In this document: piece by piece, positions 8,846 to 40,388 of the stretch | How positions within the stretch are numbered: position 1 is the first letter of the stretch | Layout: every line of letters starts with the position of its first letter | From: Granulicella cerasi | GTDB taxonomy: Bacteria; Acidobacteriota; Terriglobia; Terriglobales; Acidobacteriaceae | Direction: 5' to 3' | Assembly: GCF_025685575.1 (NCBI RefSeq) | Contig: NZ_JAGSYD010000001.1 | Location: 995,852-1,059,851, forward strand | DNA: 64,000 nt | Notes under the pieces: model-generated | What the model was told of the DNA's origin: nothing | The model's input: only the letters and a program-made list of their open reading frames with translations | Databases searched by the model: none | Program-made: the position numbers and the translations under genes

Positions 8846-9037
8846 ATGAAGAAGGCAATTCTTTACACCTCCACTCTGATCGCTCTTGTCGCGCTGGCAC
8901 ACCCGGCGTTGGCGCAGTCTGGTTGTTCAGACTCGCCTGAAAATCCAACGCTGATCCTTGCCGGTCTGGCAGGCGGCGTTTATGGGTTGAACACCCTGCG
9001 TATGCGCATCCGCGCACGTCGCGCCCCGAAGAACTAA
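8846..9037 (+). CDS. Minimal PExPT-CTERM-type exosortase substrate
   Basis: This 63-residue protein has three parts. Residues 1-23 are a signal peptide ending in PALA. A very short segment QSGCSDS follows. Then comes a C-terminal sorting signal: PENPT at about 31-35, a hydrophobic helix (LILAGLAGGVYGLNTL) and a basic tail (RMRIRARRAPKN). This is the architecture of exosortase substrates, here of the PExPT-like class. If both ends are cleaved, only about ten residues with one cysteine would remain. AAGGA lies about eight bases before ATG 8846. The exosortase gene starts 52 bases downstream, so the two are very likely one operon. Confidence 0.8.
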   Translation: MKKAILYTSTLIALVALAHPALAQSGCSDSPENPTLILAGLAGGVYGLNTLRMRIRARRAPKN

Positions 9038-9089: not shown

Positions 9090-10700
9090 GTGACCCCATC
9101 AGAAGGCGTGTCCAGCAGTTTCTTAAAGCCCCGTACCGCGGTTGCATTGGCTTGCCTTTGCTCCGTGGCGGGGCTTTTTACGATTTACCCCACGGCCCGC
9201 CAACTGCTGCTGCTTTGGGGAAATGACGATCTGAAGAGCATGGGCGCTGTCGTGCCCCTGATTTCGATGGCGCTCATTCTTCGCGTCTGGCGCCGGCTCG
9301 GTTGGGAAACGGAAGGCTCCTGGTGGGGCTTTGCGATGCTCGCCGTCACGGTCGCGCTGGTCTATATCCAGTCGCAGACGCTCTTCGTGGTCATGGTGAA
9401 CAAGCACTGGCTGGTGCAGTTGCCGCCGTTCCCGGTGGTGGCAATTGCCTATACAGCCAGCATGGTGCTGCTTTTCGGCGGTTGGCGCCTGCTGCGTGAG
9501 GCGTGGTTCCCGGTGCTTTTCATGGGGGCCGTGATCCCTATTCCGCAGAGCTTCACGAACCTCGTCGACCTTCCGCTGCAGCATGCGTCCGCCACGGTGG
9601 CGCGCGGCTTCGCCCACCTGCTCGGCGAGCAGCTTACGCAGGACCGTCTGCGCCTCATGTTCACGCCGGAGTATGGCATGTTCATCGCGCCGGGCTGCAA
9701 CGGCATTCGCGGCGCGATCACGCTGGGCATGGCCGCGCTCGTCGTCGGCTATCTGTATCGCTTCCGCTGGTGGGTTTTCGCGCCGGTCGTCGCGGGCGCC
9801 GTGCTGCTCGGCTATCTCTTCAACTTCCTGCGACTCTGCCTGCTCGTCGTGTACTACAAGCTGACGCTGCAGCTTCCGTGGTTCCAGGTGCGCGCCAAGC
9901 AGGGCGACTACGTCATTGGCGGCGTGCTCTTCGTCTGCGCGCTCCTTATCTTCTTCGCTCTGGCGAACAAGCTGCGCCGCGATCCCGCCGATACGCTGCC
10001 GCCCATCGCTGATCAGCCGGTTCGGCGCCCGACGCATGCTCGCGCGTACCTCGCGCGCGTTGCGGTGGTGCTGGTGCTGGCAGCGATCTTCGCGGGCGAC
10101 ACGGTCCACGTGATCCGCGCCGAGAAACTGAATACCATGCAGGTGGACGCCGCTCCGCTCCCCGACCAGCTCGGCAACTGGCACAAAGTGCGTCAGTGGG
10201 ACGATCGCCTTGTCACCGGCTGGATCGTTTACACCTGGGCGGAGTACCAATCGCCCGATCTGGCACAAAAAGTTGCGCTCGGTGTTTCGCCGCGTCTCAG
10301 CCAGCATGACGCTGAGATTTGCCACCTCGCGCGGGGTGAAGATCCTACCTGGCACGGCCACCGCGACATCCCCACGCCGCAGGGCGTGGTCGCGGTCAGC
10401 GAGGCCATGTACAACAACGGCGCGCTGCAGTGGCTGGAGGCCGCCTCGGTCTGCCAGAACGGCCGTTGTGAGCAGTATTCCGGGGAAAATCAGCATGTGA
10501 CCATGGTGGTGGCGCCCCCCGAAGGGCGGCTCCCGATGCAGTCTTCGCGCGGCCCCGTGCCGGTGCTGCTGCGGGTGGAAACTACCGATAGCATGACGCC
10601 TGTCGAGCAGATGCGGCCTCGTCTGGACGCCGCTCTGACGGCCTTTCTGGGCCAGGCGAAGTTGGGTGACACGGCGATGCCGTATGGTCATCGGCAGTAA
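9090..10700 (+). CDS. Exosortase (XrtJ-like) with fused EpsI-like C-terminal domain
   Basis: This is a membrane transpeptidase thought to cleave PEP-CTERM-like signals and attach the product to the envelope. The 536-residue protein starts at GTG 9090. About eight hydrophobic helices span residues 15-290, and a soluble EpsI/DUF3485-like domain spans about 320-536. The catalytic Cys is Cys203 in APGCNGIRG and the Arg is Arg248 in NFLRLCLLVVYY. The position where exosortases normally have His (H-x-x-x-G before the last helix) appears to be Asp273 in QGDYVIGG. The EpsI fusion and the adjacent PENPT protein fit the acidobacterial exosortase J class as I remember it. Confidence 0.85.
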   Translation: MTPSEGVSSSFLKPRTAVALACLCSVAGLFTIYPTARQLLLLWGNDDLKSMGAVVPLISMALILRVWRRLGWETEGSWWGFAMLAVTVALVYIQSQTLFVVMVNKHWLVQLPPFPVVAIAYTASMVLLFGGWRLLREAWFPVLFMGAVIPIPQSFTNLVDLPLQHASATVARGFAHLLGEQLTQDRLRLMFTPEYGMFIAPGCNGIRGAITLGMAALVVGYLYRFRWWVFAPVVAGAVLLGYLFNFLRLCLLVVYYKLTLQLPWFQVRAKQGDYVIGGVLFVCALLIFFALANKLRRDPADTLPPIADQPVRRPTHARAYLARVAVVLVLAAIFAGDTVHVIRAEKLNTMQVDAAPLPDQLGNWHKVRQWDDRLVTGWIVYTWAEYQSPDLAQKVALGVSPRLSQHDAEICHLARGEDPTWHGHRDIPTPQGVVAVSEAMYNNGALQWLEAASVCQNGRCEQYSGENQHVTMVVAPPEGRLPMQSSRGPVPVLLRVETTDSMTPVEQMRPRLDAALTAFLGQAKLGDTAMPYGHRQ

Positions 10701-23922: not shown

Positions 23923-23940
23923 TTGGCACGCTAATTGCTT
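23923..23940 (+). promoter_or_regulatory. Sigma-54 (-24/-12) promoter of the Oar-like transporter gene
   Basis: TTGGCACG, four bases, then TTGCTT almost exactly matches the RpoN consensus. GG at 23925-23926 and GC at 23937-23938 are ten bases apart. The predicted start is near 23950, about 72 bases before ATG 24022. It needs an enhancer-binding activator; the region upstream to 23760 is the place to look for its sites. Confidence 0.8.
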
Positions 23941-24021
23941 CTTGGCAGACTGACGCCTTCACCAGACTTCAAAGCTCCTCCCCATAAGGTGTCGCTTCAT
24001 TCCATCCGAGGTAACAACTGC

Positions 24022-27000
24022 ATGTTCGATCCCTCTAATTTTCGCGTAGCCAAGGCCGTCCGTCGTGGACTTCTCGTCCTTGCCTGCGTTGCTGCTGTGA
24101 CCGCCGGTCATGCGCAGTCCGCTCGTGGCGTCATCACCGGTACGGTGCAGGATCCCAGCGGCGCCACTGTGCCCAACGCCAATGTGACACTGCGTTCGCC
24201 CTCGCAGGGCACCACTACCGGTGTGCACACGAACTCGGCCGGCATCTATCGCTTTGAAGGTGTGAACCCCGGCGACTACGTTGTCACCGTCGCGGCTCCT
24301 GGCTTCTCGAAGTCGGAAGTTCCTGCAACGGTTCACGTCGGCGACACGGTCGGTCGCGACTTCAAGATGGCCGTGGGCGCAGCCTCGGACACCGTCGAAG
24401 TCAGCACCAGCAATCTGGAACTGCAGACCGAAGATGCTGTTCGTGGAAGCACGATCACCTCGAAGGAACTGGCGGAGCTTCCGCTCGCCAGCCTGAACTC
24501 GCTGAACCTGATTACGACCAACCCGGGCGTGGTTCGCTCCAACCAGGGTGGTTCGCTCGATAGCGGTATCGGCGGCGTCAATGGCGCGCGCGCCCGCTCG
24601 AACAACTTCCTGATTGACGGTTTGAACAACAACGACATCTCCGTCGCTGGCCCTCAGGCGACCATCACGAATAACGATGAGTTGTCGGAAGTGAACTTCC
24701 AGACTTCGAACTTCTCACCCGAGTTTGGTCGCGCTGGCGGTGCTGTTGTTTCGCAGATCACCAAGTCGGGCACCAACAAGTGGCACGGCACGATCGCCAC
24801 GGAATATCGTAGCCAGTACTTCAACGCCAGCACGCAGACACAGCGCAACGCCTATACCAGCGCTTTGGCGACCTACAACACAGCTGTTCTGACCAATCCG
24901 AACTACCCTGTTCCGATGCTCAAGAACAAGTTCCACGATATCTACCCGGCGATCACGATCGGCGGACCGCTGGTGATTCCGCACTTGTACGACGGGCATG
25001 ATCGCACCTTCATCTTCGGTGGCGGCCAGCTGGACCGTTACGTCGCGAACTCACTGGCGACGTTCTCGAACGTGCCTACGGATGCCGGTATCGCCACGCT
25101 GCAAACGCTGGCTTCCTCCTGCCCGAACGTTGCTTTCTACCTGAACCTGCTGCAGCAGGCGGGGAACCCCCGCGGCTCCGCGTCCGGCGTGGGTACCGGC
25201 ACCGTCGACATTTCGGCTCCGACTTCGGCCGCTGCGCCGACGTGCAACGGTGTTGCACGCACCGGTTCGGTCTCCTACGGCCAGTTCTATCGTTATGCCC
25301 GCGACGTCTACCAGGATGACAATTTCCTTGTCCGCGTGGATCACAAGGCTTCCAGCAAGCAGGACATGATGTTCCGTTTCCTGTTTGACGACAACAACGA
25401 AACTCTTGGCGGTGCAGAAGGCCTCGGCCCGCAGTTTGACGTACCGGGTCGCTATCGCAACATGGGCGCTGCGTTCACCGACGTCTATCAGATCCGCAAC
25501 AATCTCGTGAACGAGTTCCGCTTCGGATTCGTGCGCAACAACCTGCGCTACGACATTCCGAGCGACCATACTTTGGCTCAGACTCTTCCTGCGTATGGCT
25601 TCTCGGGCACGGGTACCCTGGCAATTCCTTCGGTCAGCTCGTCCTTTAACCAGGGCCGTATCTCGAACAACTTCGAGTATGAAGACGTCGTAACCTACAT
25701 CAAGGGTCATCACGCCTTCAAGTTCGGCGTCGAAATTCAGCGCCAGCTCGCTATCCAGCAGGCACCGTTCAACGGACGCGGTACGGTTACTTACACGGCC
25801 TGCACCACGACGAGCTGCTCGCCGGGCGGTATCTCCACCACGATCTCCGCGTTCTCGAACTTCATCGACAACTACGCTGGTGTCACCACCAGCCCGGTTG
25901 CGAAGGTGTTCGATACGGTGTATCCGAATCAGCCGGGCAAGTACCGTCCGAACCTGTTCTCTTACTCGTTCTTCGTGCAGGACACGTACAAGATGACGCC
26001 GAACCTCAGCATCGTCTACGGCGTGCGCTATGAGAACTTCGGCCAGCCCGCAAACGGAGCGCTGAGCCATCCCGCCTTCAATGGCTACGGCACGAACGAC
26101 TTCGCCGGCATCTCGAAGGTGAACGTAGACAACAACAATATTGGACCCACCATCGGCTTCTCCTACCAGCCGCATACGGGTTCCGGTCTCTTCAACGGCC
26201 GCACCGTGATCCGCGGTGGCTACCAGTTGACCTACGACACGTTCTTCAACAATCTGCTGTCGAACGCCAAGGCTGCATCGCCGAACTCGCCGTCGAACCT
26301 GCCGGTTCCTAGCACCTCGACGACGACGACACCTCGTGGTCTCAGCAATCCGGCTGCTCTTCTTGCCTCGGCGGTTCCGACGCTGACGCCGTACACCACG
26401 GAAATGTCGGACCTCAAGAAGGACCTCCGCAACCCTTACTATCACCACTTCTCGCTCGGCATCCAGGAAGAACTGCCTGGCCACATCCTGCTCGACATCG
26501 CTTACGTTGGAACGCAGGGTCGTCAGCTCTTCTTCACCGATCCCCTGAACCCGGCGCTGCCGAACGCTACCTTCACGGGCACGGCGACGCAGACCACTTC
26601 GCTCTACGGCTCGCAGACTCTGCGCCTGTATGCGAACCGCGGCACGATCCAGATTCGTGACGGCGGTGCGACGTCCAACTACAACTCGGTGCAGGTGCAG
26701 GTTCGCCACTCCGGTCTCAAGACCGTAGCCGGCCGCCTCTACTTCACCAGCTCGTACACCTATGGCAAGAGCCTCGACGTCATCTCGGAGACCTTCGCCA
26801 CCAACTCTTCGGCTCAGAACCCTTCGCGTTCGCCCGCAGTGGCTGATATTCGTTCGCTCGATTACGGTCCCTCGGACAATGATCGCCGTCACGTATCCTC
26901 CACCGTCGTCAACTTCCAGGTTCGTGGACCGGAAAGCGGCGTTCTGGCACGCGTACTCGGTGGCTGGTCCATCGCTCCGATCCTCACGGTTCAGAGCGGT

Positions 27001-27522
27001 ACTCCGTACACCGTCCTGAACGGTGTTGACCGCGATCTCGATGGTTCATCCATCGGCGACCGCGCAGACATCGGCAACAAGAATGCTCCGTTTGATTCGC
27101 GTGGCATGGTCACCACGGCCTGCGCAAGTGGTCTGTATGACGGCGGCAAGTACGCTGCTGCTGTGGCTGCCGGTGTGGCTACGGCCACGGCCATCTCCAC
27201 CAACTGCACCACGCGTGACCAGGTCCGCTTTGTACAGGTCACCAACTACAACGTGAACCAGACGCAGGGCCGTAACTCGCAGTACACGACGCGCTACCTC
27301 AACCTCGACACGAACGTTCTGAAGAAGATCAAGATCACCGGCCGCGTGAATGCCGAAGTGGGCGCGACCTTCCTCAACGTGACGAACAACCAGAACTTCG
27401 ATACTCCGTCTGCCTACATCACCTCGCTGTCGACGTACGGCAACACTTCGAACTTCCTCAACTACTCGATCCCCTCCGGCGGATCGCGCACCATGCGTCT
27501 CCGCGCGAAGATCCTGTTCTAA
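24022..27522 (+). CDS. Oar-like TonB-dependent transporter with carboxypeptidase-regulatory domain
   Basis: This 1166-residue outer-membrane protein has a signal peptide (about 1-33, AGHAQ). A carboxypeptidase-regulatory-like domain spans about 35-115 (GVITGTVQDPSGATVPNANV to GDYVVTVAAPGFSK). The TonB plug spans about 125-260 (SNNFLIDGLNNND, FSPEFGRAGGAVVSQITKSG) and a large beta-barrel ends in LRAKILF. Such proteins are very numerous in Acidobacteria and probably import oligosaccharides or peptides; the ligand is unknown. ATG 24022 follows GAGGTAA. The gene stands alone behind a sigma-54 promoter and is closed by a strong terminator. Confidence 0.9.
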   Translation: MFDPSNFRVAKAVRRGLLVLACVAAVTAGHAQSARGVITGTVQDPSGATVPNANVTLRSPSQGTTTGVHTNSAGIYRFEGVNPGDYVVTVAAPGFSKSEVPATVHVGDTVGRDFKMAVGAASDTVEVSTSNLELQTEDAVRGSTITSKELAELPLASLNSLNLITTNPGVVRSNQGGSLDSGIGGVNGARARSNNFLIDGLNNNDISVAGPQATITNNDELSEVNFQTSNFSPEFGRAGGAVVSQITKSGTNKWHGTIATEYRSQYFNASTQTQRNAYTSALATYNTAVLTNPNYPVPMLKNKFHDIYPAITIGGPLVIPHLYDGHDRTFIFGGGQLDRYVANSLATFSNVPTDAGIATLQTLASSCPNVAFYLNLLQQAGNPRGSASGVGTGTVDISAPTSAAAPTCNGVARTGSVSYGQFYRYARDVYQDDNFLVRVDHKASSKQDMMFRFLFDDNNETLGGAEGLGPQFDVPGRYRNMGAAFTDVYQIRNNLVNEFRFGFVRNNLRYDIPSDHTLAQTLPAYGFSGTGTLAIPSVSSSFNQGRISNNFEYEDVVTYIKGHHAFKFGVEIQRQLAIQQAPFNGRGTVTYTACTTTSCSPGGISTTISAFSNFIDNYAGVTTSPVAKVFDTVYPNQPGKYRPNLFSYSFFVQDTYKMTPNLSIVYGVRYENFGQPANGALSHPAFNGYGTNDFAGISKVNVDNNNIGPTIGFSYQPHTGSGLFNGRTVIRGGYQLTYDTFFNNLLSNAKAASPNSPSNLPVPSTSTTTTPRGLSNPAALLASAVPTLTPYTTEMSDLKKDLRNPYYHHFSLGIQEELPGHILLDIAYVGTQGRQLFFTDPLNPALPNATFTGTATQTTSLYGSQTLRLYANRGTIQIRDGGATSNYNSVQVQVRHSGLKTVAGRLYFTSSYTYGKSLDVISETFATNSSAQNPSRSPAVADIRSLDYGPSDNDRRHVSSTVVNFQVRGPESGVLARVLGGWSIAPILTVQSGTPYTVLNGVDRDLDGSSIGDRADIGNKNAPFDSRGMVTTACASGLYDGGKYAAAVAAGVATATAISTNCTTRDQVRFVQVTNYNVNQTQGRNSQYTTRYLNLDTNVLKKIKITGRVNAEVGATFLNVTNNQNFDTPSAYITSLSTYGNTSNFLNYSIPSGGSRTMRLRAKILF

Positions 27523-37886: not shown

Positions 37887-40388
37887 ATGGTTGAGGAGAG
37901 CTTCTTGTTTTCTGTGATGCGACGTGGCGTTTTCGGTAGTGCGGTGTTGTTGGCCGCGCCTGTTCTGGTGGTAACTGCAGCTCATGCGCAAAGCGCGGGC
38001 AGCGTCAGGGGAATCGTGCGCGACGCCGCGCAGCTTCCCGTAGCCAACGCGCAGGTCTCGCTCGATGGCGATGACGTGCACCTGCGCTTTACGACGGACG
38101 CGAACGGGACGTACACGCTGACGAACGTGCCGCCCGGCAATTACACACTGACCGCGCAGCGCGCCGATTTCCAGCCGGTCTCGCTGCAGCTCCGCGTCGT
38201 CAGCGGTCCGGCTTTCGCGCAGGACCTGATCTTCACGCGCGCCCGCAGCGATGCGAGTGTCACCGTGACTGCACCCACAACCGGCACCACGGCGCAGGGC
38301 TACTACATCGACCGCGTCGACCGCGGCGTGCTCGGTGAAACGCCTATCGTCGACCAGCCCGCCGTCATCACCACCGCGTCGGCCGACCTGCTGCAGAACC
38401 TGCAGGTGAAGAGCTTCCGCGACGCCATGCACTACATGCCGCTCGTGCAGTTCACCGAGCAGCAGGGCCCCGAAGTTCTGCGCCCCGCCACGCGCGGTAT
38501 GCAGGGTTCCATCGCGCAGAACACCCGCATGGACGGCATGGCGATGGCGATCACCGGCGCCAACCCGATGGAGCAATACCAGGAGTTGCAGGTGCAGAAC
38601 GGCCTCGGCGCCGCGATGTACGGCCCTGCGAACCCGTCGGGCATGTTCGACTTCGTGCTGAAGCGCCCCACTGACGCGCCGACGCGCAACATCTACCTCG
38701 AGCAGGACTCGTCCTCCGTCGGCACCATCTACGGCGACTTCTCCGACCGTCTCGGCAAGCACAAGTGGTTCGGCTACCGCACGAACCTGCTCTTCGGCGA
38801 CGGCACGCAGTTCGTCGAAGCCAGCCGTCTGCGCCGCCGCCTCGGCATGTTCGCGTTCGACGCGCGCATCACGCCGACGACCACGATCGACGCCCACTAT
38901 AGCGCCTATGACCTCGTGCAGCGTGGCTACCCCGGCTGGTTCACCTACGGACCCAACACCGCTGCCGGCGGCACCACGCAGAACCCCGCACCGAGCTTCG
39001 TGCTGCCCGCTGCTCCTGACCCACGCGTGCGCGGCTTCGGCCAGGCGTATGCCGGTGTCAACCTCACCACACAGAGCACCAGCGCGCGCATTCTGCATGA
39101 CTTCTCGCCGAACTGGCACGCCGCCGCCGGCGGCCTTGCGCAACGCCTTGACCGCTTCATCGACACGCCGGTGAACGTGATCACCTCCAACAACGGCGAC
39201 TATCGCCAGTCGCTGGCGACCGGCTTTGCCCCGCGCTTCGGCGTGGAAAGCGACCTCGGCTACATCACCGGCATCCTCCGCAAATGGGGCCTGCAGCAGG
39301 ATGTCGTCGTTGCCAGCGAAGGCTACCGCTTCAACCAGTACGCCTATACCGCACCTGCGGCTGCAAGCGTTCTGCTGGGCACCGCGAACGTGGCGCATCC
39401 GGTCATCTTCGCGCCGCCGGCGGCGGGCCTGCCGAAGAACACCGACCTTCGCCAGAGCGCGGTCGTGCACCAGCAGGGCTTCAACCTCGGTGACTTCATT
39501 CACTTCCCACACGGCCTCGGCATCCGCGTCGCCGCGAGCCAGGACTGGATCGGCGCGGATAACTACACCTGGACCGCTGCCACCCGCACCAACGCGCGTA
39601 CCAGTGGTTCGAACAAGCAGGGCATCAGCCCTTCGGCCAGCGTGCTCTACAAGTTCGGCTCGACGCTCACCGCGTACGGCACCTTCGCCAGCAGCCTGCA
39701 GCAGGGCGATCTCGCGCCGACCTCAGCCGCGCTCGTCAACAGCGGGCAGTCGCTTGCGCCTTACCGCAGCAAGCAGTGGGAGATGGGCGTGAAGTCTGAT
39801 CCGCGCCCCATCGCCTTCACCGCCGCGCTCTTCCGCCTGGAGCGTCCGTTCGCCAACACGGTCGCGTACAACGGCAGCGCGACGCAAACGATCTTCAAGA
39901 TCGTCGGCCAGCAGGTGAACTTCGGCGCAGAGTTGCAGGCGCAGGGCACGCTCTTCAACCGTCTGCTGATTGACGGCGGCTTCACCGCGTTGAACTCCCG
40001 CCTGAACGGCACGCAGATCGCCGCCACGGACGGCAAGCGCTTCGTCGGTATCCCCGGCTACCGCGCTGGTCTCTACAGTGAATACCGCGTACCCGGCGTG
40101 CAGCGTCTCAGTCTCACGGGCTCATGGCAGTTCATCGGGCAGCGTCCGCAGGACGACGAAAACCTGCACACCACACCCGGATCGAGCACCTTCGACTTCG
40201 GTTTCCGCTACGCGCGCACCGTGCACAAGATGCTCGCGACGCTGCGCTTCAACTGCCAGAACATCACCGACACGCGCTACTACTCGACGATCGCTGCGGG
40301 AGACATTACCGGCACCAACGCCAGCAGTAACGTCGCCCACATCGGCACGCCGCGCACCATCTCCAGCGGTCTGCAGCTCGGCTTCTAA
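37887..40388 (+). CDS. TonB-dependent receptor, siderophore-receptor-like
   Basis: This 833-residue outer-membrane receptor has a signal peptide (about 1-36, AAHAQS) and a short carboxypeptidase-regulatory-like domain (about 38-115, GSVRGIVRDAAQLPVANAQV). The plug (about 150-260) carries RPATRGMQGSIAQNTRMDGM and YGPANPSGMFDFVLKRPT, the pattern of ferric-siderophore receptors of the FhuE/FpvA kind. The barrel ends in a terminal Phe (GLQLGF). The ligand is not determined. ATG 37887 is used; an internal ATG at 37917 (MRRGVFGSAVLL) would also give a signal peptide. The sodium:solute symporter begins 48 bases after its stop, so the two may act in one uptake route across both membranes. Confidence 0.87.
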   Translation: MVEESFLFSVMRRGVFGSAVLLAAPVLVVTAAHAQSAGSVRGIVRDAAQLPVANAQVSLDGDDVHLRFTTDANGTYTLTNVPPGNYTLTAQRADFQPVSLQLRVVSGPAFAQDLIFTRARSDASVTVTAPTTGTTAQGYYIDRVDRGVLGETPIVDQPAVITTASADLLQNLQVKSFRDAMHYMPLVQFTEQQGPEVLRPATRGMQGSIAQNTRMDGMAMAITGANPMEQYQELQVQNGLGAAMYGPANPSGMFDFVLKRPTDAPTRNIYLEQDSSSVGTIYGDFSDRLGKHKWFGYRTNLLFGDGTQFVEASRLRRRLGMFAFDARITPTTTIDAHYSAYDLVQRGYPGWFTYGPNTAAGGTTQNPAPSFVLPAAPDPRVRGFGQAYAGVNLTTQSTSARILHDFSPNWHAAAGGLAQRLDRFIDTPVNVITSNNGDYRQSLATGFAPRFGVESDLGYITGILRKWGLQQDVVVASEGYRFNQYAYTAPAAASVLLGTANVAHPVIFAPPAAGLPKNTDLRQSAVVHQQGFNLGDFIHFPHGLGIRVAASQDWIGADNYTWTAATRTNARTSGSNKQGISPSASVLYKFGSTLTAYGTFASSLQQGDLAPTSAALVNSGQSLAPYRSKQWEMGVKSDPRPIAFTAALFRLERPFANTVAYNGSATQTIFKIVGQQVNFGAELQAQGTLFNRLLIDGGFTALNSRLNGTQIAATDGKRFVGIPGYRAGLYSEYRVPGVQRLSLTGSWQFIGQRPQDDENLHTTPGSSTFDFGFRYARTVHKMLATLRFNCQNITDTRYYSTIAAGDITGTNASSNVAHIGTPRTISSGLQLGF

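Follow-up and report, generated by a model that had tools for sequence, protein, structure and literature searches.

A cysteine-bearing PExPT-CTERM peptide beside exosortase J in Granulicella cerasi as a candidate cargo-free sorting substrate

The genome of the soil bacterium Granulicella cerasi carries, side by side, a conserved gene for a 63-residue PExPT-CTERM protein that is nearly all sorting signal and the gene for exosortase J (XrtJ), a membrane exosortase with a CX4C cysteine pair in its C-terminal domain and an aspartate where the other exosortases examined have a histidine. We tentatively propose that the short protein is a dedicated, cargo-free substrate of XrtJ and that its thiol is handled by the CX4C domain before cleavage at PExPT, a reading that we consider possible and set below against its alternatives.

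The PExPT-CTERM gene and its exosortase neighbour

The PExPT-CTERM gene occupies 8846..9037 on the + strand of the window, by which we mean the whole 64,000-nucleotide stretch analysed, and begins with an ATG preceded by GAAGGA at a spacing of six bases. Its sequence confirms that the gene belongs to a known family, NCBIfam TIGR04200, which its product matches at 65.4 bits (E 2.9e-18, model positions 6-57 of 57) against a curated cut-off of 40 bits; a Pfam search of the protein gave no match at E 1. The protein consists of a predicted signal peptide (residues ~1-23), the seven residues QSGCSDS (24-30), the sorting motif PENPT (31-35; 8936..8950, +) and a hydrophobic stretch with a basic tail (36-63). 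It thus shows the PExPT motif, hydrophobic stretch and basic tail of TIGR04200; the N-terminal signal was recognised by eye only, and the signal-peptidase site after A23 (between ALA and Q24) was placed by the AxA rule, likewise by eye instead of with a signal-peptide program. The seven residues between that predicted site and PENPT include the single Cys of the mature part, C27 (codon 8924..8926, +), which stands four residues ahead of the first Pro of PENPT. Residues P31, E32 and P34 are invariant in 46 aligned rows, which were picked for the motif and so provide no independent test of that invariance.

The exosortase J gene (9090..10700, +) follows after at least 52 bases, a lower bound because 9090 is its first possible start codon. 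It encodes 536 amino acids, with a core (~1-300) that contains C203, R248 and D273, and a C-terminal domain (~345-536; 10122..10700, +) that we take to be periplasmic. The protein matches TIGR04199 at 617.2 bits (model positions 3-522 of 522), above the curated cut-off of 200 bits, and the Pfam family PF09721 (Exosortase_EpsH) at 129 bits. These results agree with the preliminary description, which from the letters of the window had proposed a short open reading frame that is nearly all signal, with one Cys in its mature part, in a named PExPT-CTERM class, and had called it a likely substrate of the exosortase encoded 52 bases downstream. We regard the pairing of XrtJ with the PExPT protein as enzyme and substrate as very probable. 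The family is already known by name; in the open-access literature searched its function is described nowhere, as had been anticipated, and we found there no paper that names the TIGR04200 family or reports experiments on it.

The PExPT-CTERM gene is under purifying selection, with a Nei-Gojobori dN/dS of 0.11 over residues 2-58 in 15 sequences including the window's. The segment from C27 to T35 changes least at the amino-acid level (pN 0.097), and no dN/dS ratio is given for it because its synonymous sites are saturated. We then measured the size of relatives with a tail-only model, which covers the Ser that precedes PExPT and everything after it, leaves out the Cys column and was trained on rows that all bear a Cys. 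Run on 17 genomes picked for carrying the family (in G083, G115 and G166, on 150 of 152-183 first-look candidates), the model gave 28 strong matches in its list, with E 1.3e-8 or better, and a next-best match at E 0.014. The open frames of the 28 are all 66-105 codons long, and no long protein with a PExPT tail is among these strong matches listed from the 17 genomes; the large mature domains in homologues that, by the preliminary description, would have refuted it did not appear. One weak match in the window's own genome (C3:158648) was rejected as a family member, as its overlapping frames show no such architecture, and short CTERM-like frames near 30 other exosortases were dropped as implausible by eye.

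The fixed cysteine, the active site and the CX4C domain

Conservation of the Cys, a second check proposed earlier, can be tested on the 28 tail-model matches because the model omits the Cys column, and cannot be tested on a set of 45 rows because the pattern that selected them demands a Cys. A Cys is present in 27 of the 28 matches, and in 26 it keeps the window's register, exactly three residues ahead of the Ser/Thr in [ST]-P-E-x-P-T; in one it lies four ahead. The distance to the signal peptide is looser: 39 of the 45 rows have an Ala-Gln site, and in these 3 to 9 residues separate its Ala from the Cys. Being fixed to PExPT and variable to the signal peptide, the Cys therefore resembles a part of the sorting signal and not a free linker, and on these alignments it looks like a component of that signal. 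The sole match without Cys, from genome G207, has an arginine run before SPENPT; shortness would therefore be the wider feature, to which the Cys may have been added.

In exosortases a conserved Cys and Arg are catalytic and the third catalytic residue is a His. Both C203 and R248 are present in 34/34 XrtJ-like rows and in 30/30 other exosortases, which were recognised by a pattern containing this Cys and Arg. At D273 (codon 9906..9908, +), four residues ahead of a conserved Gly, Asp is found in 34/34 XrtJ-like rows, G207 included, versus His in 30/30 other exosortases, these being the best-scoring of a longer list in the class, not a random draw, with near-identical pairs among them. D273 is equated with the His of the other exosortases by the spacing of four to the Gly because the MAFFT alignment places that residue in a gap opposite D273, and we take the position to be the catalytic one. 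With Asp273, XrtJ departs from the His that characterises exosortases, and its place in the superfamily follows from the family models. An AlphaFold2 model of XrtJ has a mean pLDDT of 84, falling below 50 at residues 195-202 beside the active Cys, and a sequence search with XrtJ at E 10 gave no PDB chain.

The C-terminal domain (mean pLDDT 85) contains the CX4C pair, C455 and C460, and a further Cys, C411. The pair occurs in 31/31 full-length XrtJ rows (C411 in 30/31) and in 5/5 partial or stand-alone copies of the domain, or 36/36 copies overall. Partial copies are found in G228 and G320, while G166 and G258 have a shorter exosortase with the CX4C domain as a separate adjoining gene; in G258 a further stand-alone copy adjoins an orphan PExPT gene, and the fetched stretch contains no exosortase. 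In G320 the domain likewise forms a separate gene (L122:8343-8966), and no XrtJ core is among that genome's matches. By contrast, 0/30 of the EpsI proteins encoded next to those 30 best-scoring exosortases have CX4C, and each of these EpsI proteins has H-x4-C and GW. The EpsI of the Cys-free system in G207 also has H-x4-C and GW and lacks CX4C; at that locus (L118:6401-8128) RRRR replaces the Cys segment and the EpsI is of the classical kind.

A comparison of the XrtJ C-terminal domain with the 30 EpsI sequences by hhalign gave E 0.17, and we therefore limit their likeness to position and a by-eye resemblance to HX4C, homology not having been detected. At E 0.1, TIGR04199 is the only NCBIfam match of the domain. 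Its best fold matches in VIA-align are DcrB (Z 8.8; 3.5 A over 106 residues) and SciW (Z 8.4; 4.7 A over 123 residues), and the best Foldseek match reached E 0.03, with none at 0.001 or below; we draw no function from these folds. When 14 XrtJ-like exosortases were placed in a tree with 15 others, XrtJ with L059 and L116 split off at 100/100 and G207 fell on a long branch between that side and the rest; the Asp-type exosortase of G207 scores higher with the XrtA model than with the XrtJ model. The substrate Cys is thus associated with the CX4C domain, but perhaps through one evolutionary event, because XrtJ, L059 and L116 lie on one side of the tree and the Cys-free G207 outside it. G207, a single genome, suggests that shortness and the Asp may have preceded the thiol pair, and the CX4C pair could also be an ordinary structural disulfide. 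A 2012 paper reportedly described exosortase classes, and it or the family records may contain the fixed Cys register, the CX4C domain and the Asp in place of His, none of which we found in the open-access literature.

In MYXO-CTERM proteins, the Cys adjoins the helix. A handle of the same kind is conceivable here, though in our estimate unlikely: the Cys would be lipidated first and the exosortase would then remove the helix, leaving a small membrane lipopeptide. The window protein has eight residues from its Cys to the hydrophobic stretch, more than MYXO-CTERM signals have, and G207 carries a short signal with no Cys to lipidate. Such a handle would also leave the CX4C domain unexplained. 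The lipid-linked role offered by the preliminary description stays among those we consider, weakened by the lipobox, which in its strict form precedes the Cys in only 5/45 Cys-bearing members and is absent from the window protein (QSGC). Its precedent is the myxosortase system, for which the available text of the source states that the signal's conserved Cys residues are needed for cleavage, that there is no defined lipobox, and that lipidation is the authors' proposal (PMC11980579).

Pairing across genomes and gene neighbourhoods

The window's own genome has two exosortases, both XrtJ, and three PExPT proteins over cut-off; against the PEP-CTERM model TIGR02595 it gave nothing over cut-off, and the four weak matches listed lie elsewhere. 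Adjacency was counted only on the search for XrtJ itself, because most loci were fetched via the peptide search. That search gave 11 XrtJ matches over cut-off; a PExPT gene adjoins nine of them and is missing beside the other two (L114:7797-9485 and L115:7284-8945). In a sample of 150 genomes of the family, XrtJ is found in 10 at E 1e-20, of which seven pass its cut-off, and 10 carry TIGR04200 over cut-off; nine genomes, including all seven with XrtJ over cut-off, have both. The exceptions are G320, with a match to the C-terminal domain only, and G275, with the peptide and no XrtJ. In a sample of 200 genomes of the class, TIGR04200 is over cut-off in 17, and 17/17 have a PF09721 exosortase match, compared with 118/200 overall; an ordinary exosortase is present as well in some related genomes. 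In the fetched stretch, nine Cys-bearing PExPT loci (L043, L046, L047, L049, L051, L058, L081, L111 and L119) lack both XrtJ and the CX4C domain. For these an enzyme would act from elsewhere, as is possible in XrtJ-bearing genomes; in G275 (L119), XrtJ is absent genome-wide at E 1e-20.

The peptide could instead be a small membrane partner or regulator of XrtJ, such as a pseudosubstrate or assembly factor, whether cut or uncut. The adjacency at 9/11 XrtJ matches and the lack of cargo in all 28 strong matches listed would agree with such a role. We nevertheless find it rather doubtful: extra PExPT copies lie away from any exosortase, G115 (with two PF09721 matches) having three copies of which one is beside XrtJ, and a conserved PExPT motif would be expected of a cut site more than of a binding partner.

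The window locus has frr on one side, then PExPT, XrtJ and BamA, often with folP and dacB further out, and this type of neighbourhood appears in 18 distinct records, in 17 of which BamA is visible. A second type, seen in 14 records of which some are near-identical and one is the other copy in the own genome, places a beta-propeller (NHL) gene after PExPT and XrtJ; the Pfam domains of these neighbours were checked in three of the 14 (L042, L045 and L053). At L042:7743-10196 and the 13 records of the same synteny, the product directly 3' of XrtJ is a secreted-looking NHL beta-propeller. We treat this link as a lead only, because no NHL neighbour occurs within the fetched stretches of the 18 window-type records and because the own genome has 33 matches to the NHL beta-propeller query. 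Similar beta-propeller genes lie near PExPT at L059, L081, L113, L117, L119 (by phmmer only) and L121, and L081:1569-6606 contains two tandem units of a beta-propeller gene with a PExPT gene after it, the fetched stretch there showing no exosortase. Elsewhere in the window, 23935-27522 and 37887-40388 encode large outer-membrane beta-barrels with an N-terminal carboxypeptidase-regulatory-like domain.

A PECPT variant, with a second Cys inside the motif, occurs in three genomes of the genus (L043:8935-9204, L058:7568-7831 and L111:8310-8597), where the genes lie in exopolysaccharide-type clusters with no exosortase nearby. The third PExPT copy of the own genome is such a PECPT gene, with SLBB export and chain-length genes directly downstream, and the same arrangement is found in G083; in G319 the PECPT copy lies among sugar-nucleotide and glycosyltransferase-like genes, as judged by eye. 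These settings fit the general location of exosortase genes among exopolysaccharide genes, as given in the available part of PMC1569441. They would also favour a tag, in which XrtJ couples the peptide to exopolysaccharide and the thiols cross-link the matrix. No such genes are among the examined neighbours at either the window locus or the other XrtJ locus of the own genome, and we rate this tag as improbable.

A released peptide, in which the peptide's own Cys resolves the acyl intermediate to a cyclic thiolactone or a linear signal is freed, as with AgrD/AgrB, would suit a short secreted peptide with a Cys at a set distance from the cut motif and a dedicated membrane Cys protease, yet it is very unlikely, since C27-T35 is near-constant between species where signalling peptides usually diverge, neither the window locus nor the second own locus has a sensor gene next to it, and G207 has no Cys. 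The small-signal role suggested earlier is disfavoured on the first of these grounds. Regulator-like genes, identified by eye, lie some kilobases off at L049, L051 and L117, and a GGDEF protein is encoded ~8 kb away in the window.

A proposed mechanism and its relation to known systems

We return to our preferred reading, that the peptide is a dedicated substrate whose thiol is handled by XrtJ. From the layout of the protein we infer that Sec export and a signal-peptidase I cut would leave a short Cys-bearing stub, with its C-terminal helix in the inner membrane. The thiol, four residues before PExPT, might then be engaged by the XrtJ CX4C domain, a step that we advance tentatively. In the simplest form of engagement, a mixed disulfide would dock the otherwise featureless stub or select its reduced form. 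Cys203 of XrtJ would cut at PExPT, with Arg248 and with Asp instead of the usual His. The peptide would then be handed to an acceptor in the envelope, probably a lipid or a molecule linked to exopolysaccharide, and we lean slightly towards such a transfer over plain release. The product would be a ~12-residue peptide with one thiol on the cell envelope; because it has no domain to display, its purpose would lie in the attached group and the thiol.

A bolder form of this mechanism is thiol-gated sorting, in which XrtJ would install a cargo-free Cys peptide on an envelope lipid or polysaccharide instead of displaying proteins, and a redox-active CX4C domain would read the substrate Cys before the Asp-type exosortase cuts. 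We think this unlikely as a whole; if true, it would couple surface tagging to the periplasmic redox state.

The system offers a probable natural substrate of ~12 residues with one thiol, no folded domain and its enzyme adjacent, in a genome with no other recognised substrate, which is close to an ideal assay. A single mass spectrum of the peptide could reveal both the product and the group attached to it. The cut site and acceptor of exosortases are unspecified in the available part of the 2006 paper (PMC1569441), and for a related archaeosortase the exact site and lipid are called unclear in the available part of the 2025 paper (PMC11980579). The association of the Cys with CX4C and the replacement of His by Asp lend themselves to site-directed tests of mechanism, and these family-level features make the system more testable than is apparent from the window sequence alone.

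Both genes are members of the PExPT-CTERM/exosortase J system (TIGR04200/TIGR04199), with a short substrate beside its enzyme. With AgrD/AgrB they share a tiny precursor, a Cys and a dedicated membrane Cys protease, but they differ from it in their own loci without an adjacent sensor, in their little sequence diversification and in an unrelated enzyme. The tripartite C-terminal signal and the exosortase family PF09721 are those of PEP-CTERM/EpsH, and an extra domain, fused or adjacent, recalls EpsI as presented in the available part of PMC1569441. Unlike PEP-CTERM/EpsH and EpsI, the pair described here combines a cargo-free Cys substrate, an Asp for His and a CX4C domain. What the substrate's signal has in common with MYXO-CTERM is a conserved Cys just ahead of a cleaved C-terminal helix, whereas myxosortase, according to the available text of PMC11980579, is an unrelated enzyme of the CPBP family and acts in a system with cargo proteins such as TraA.
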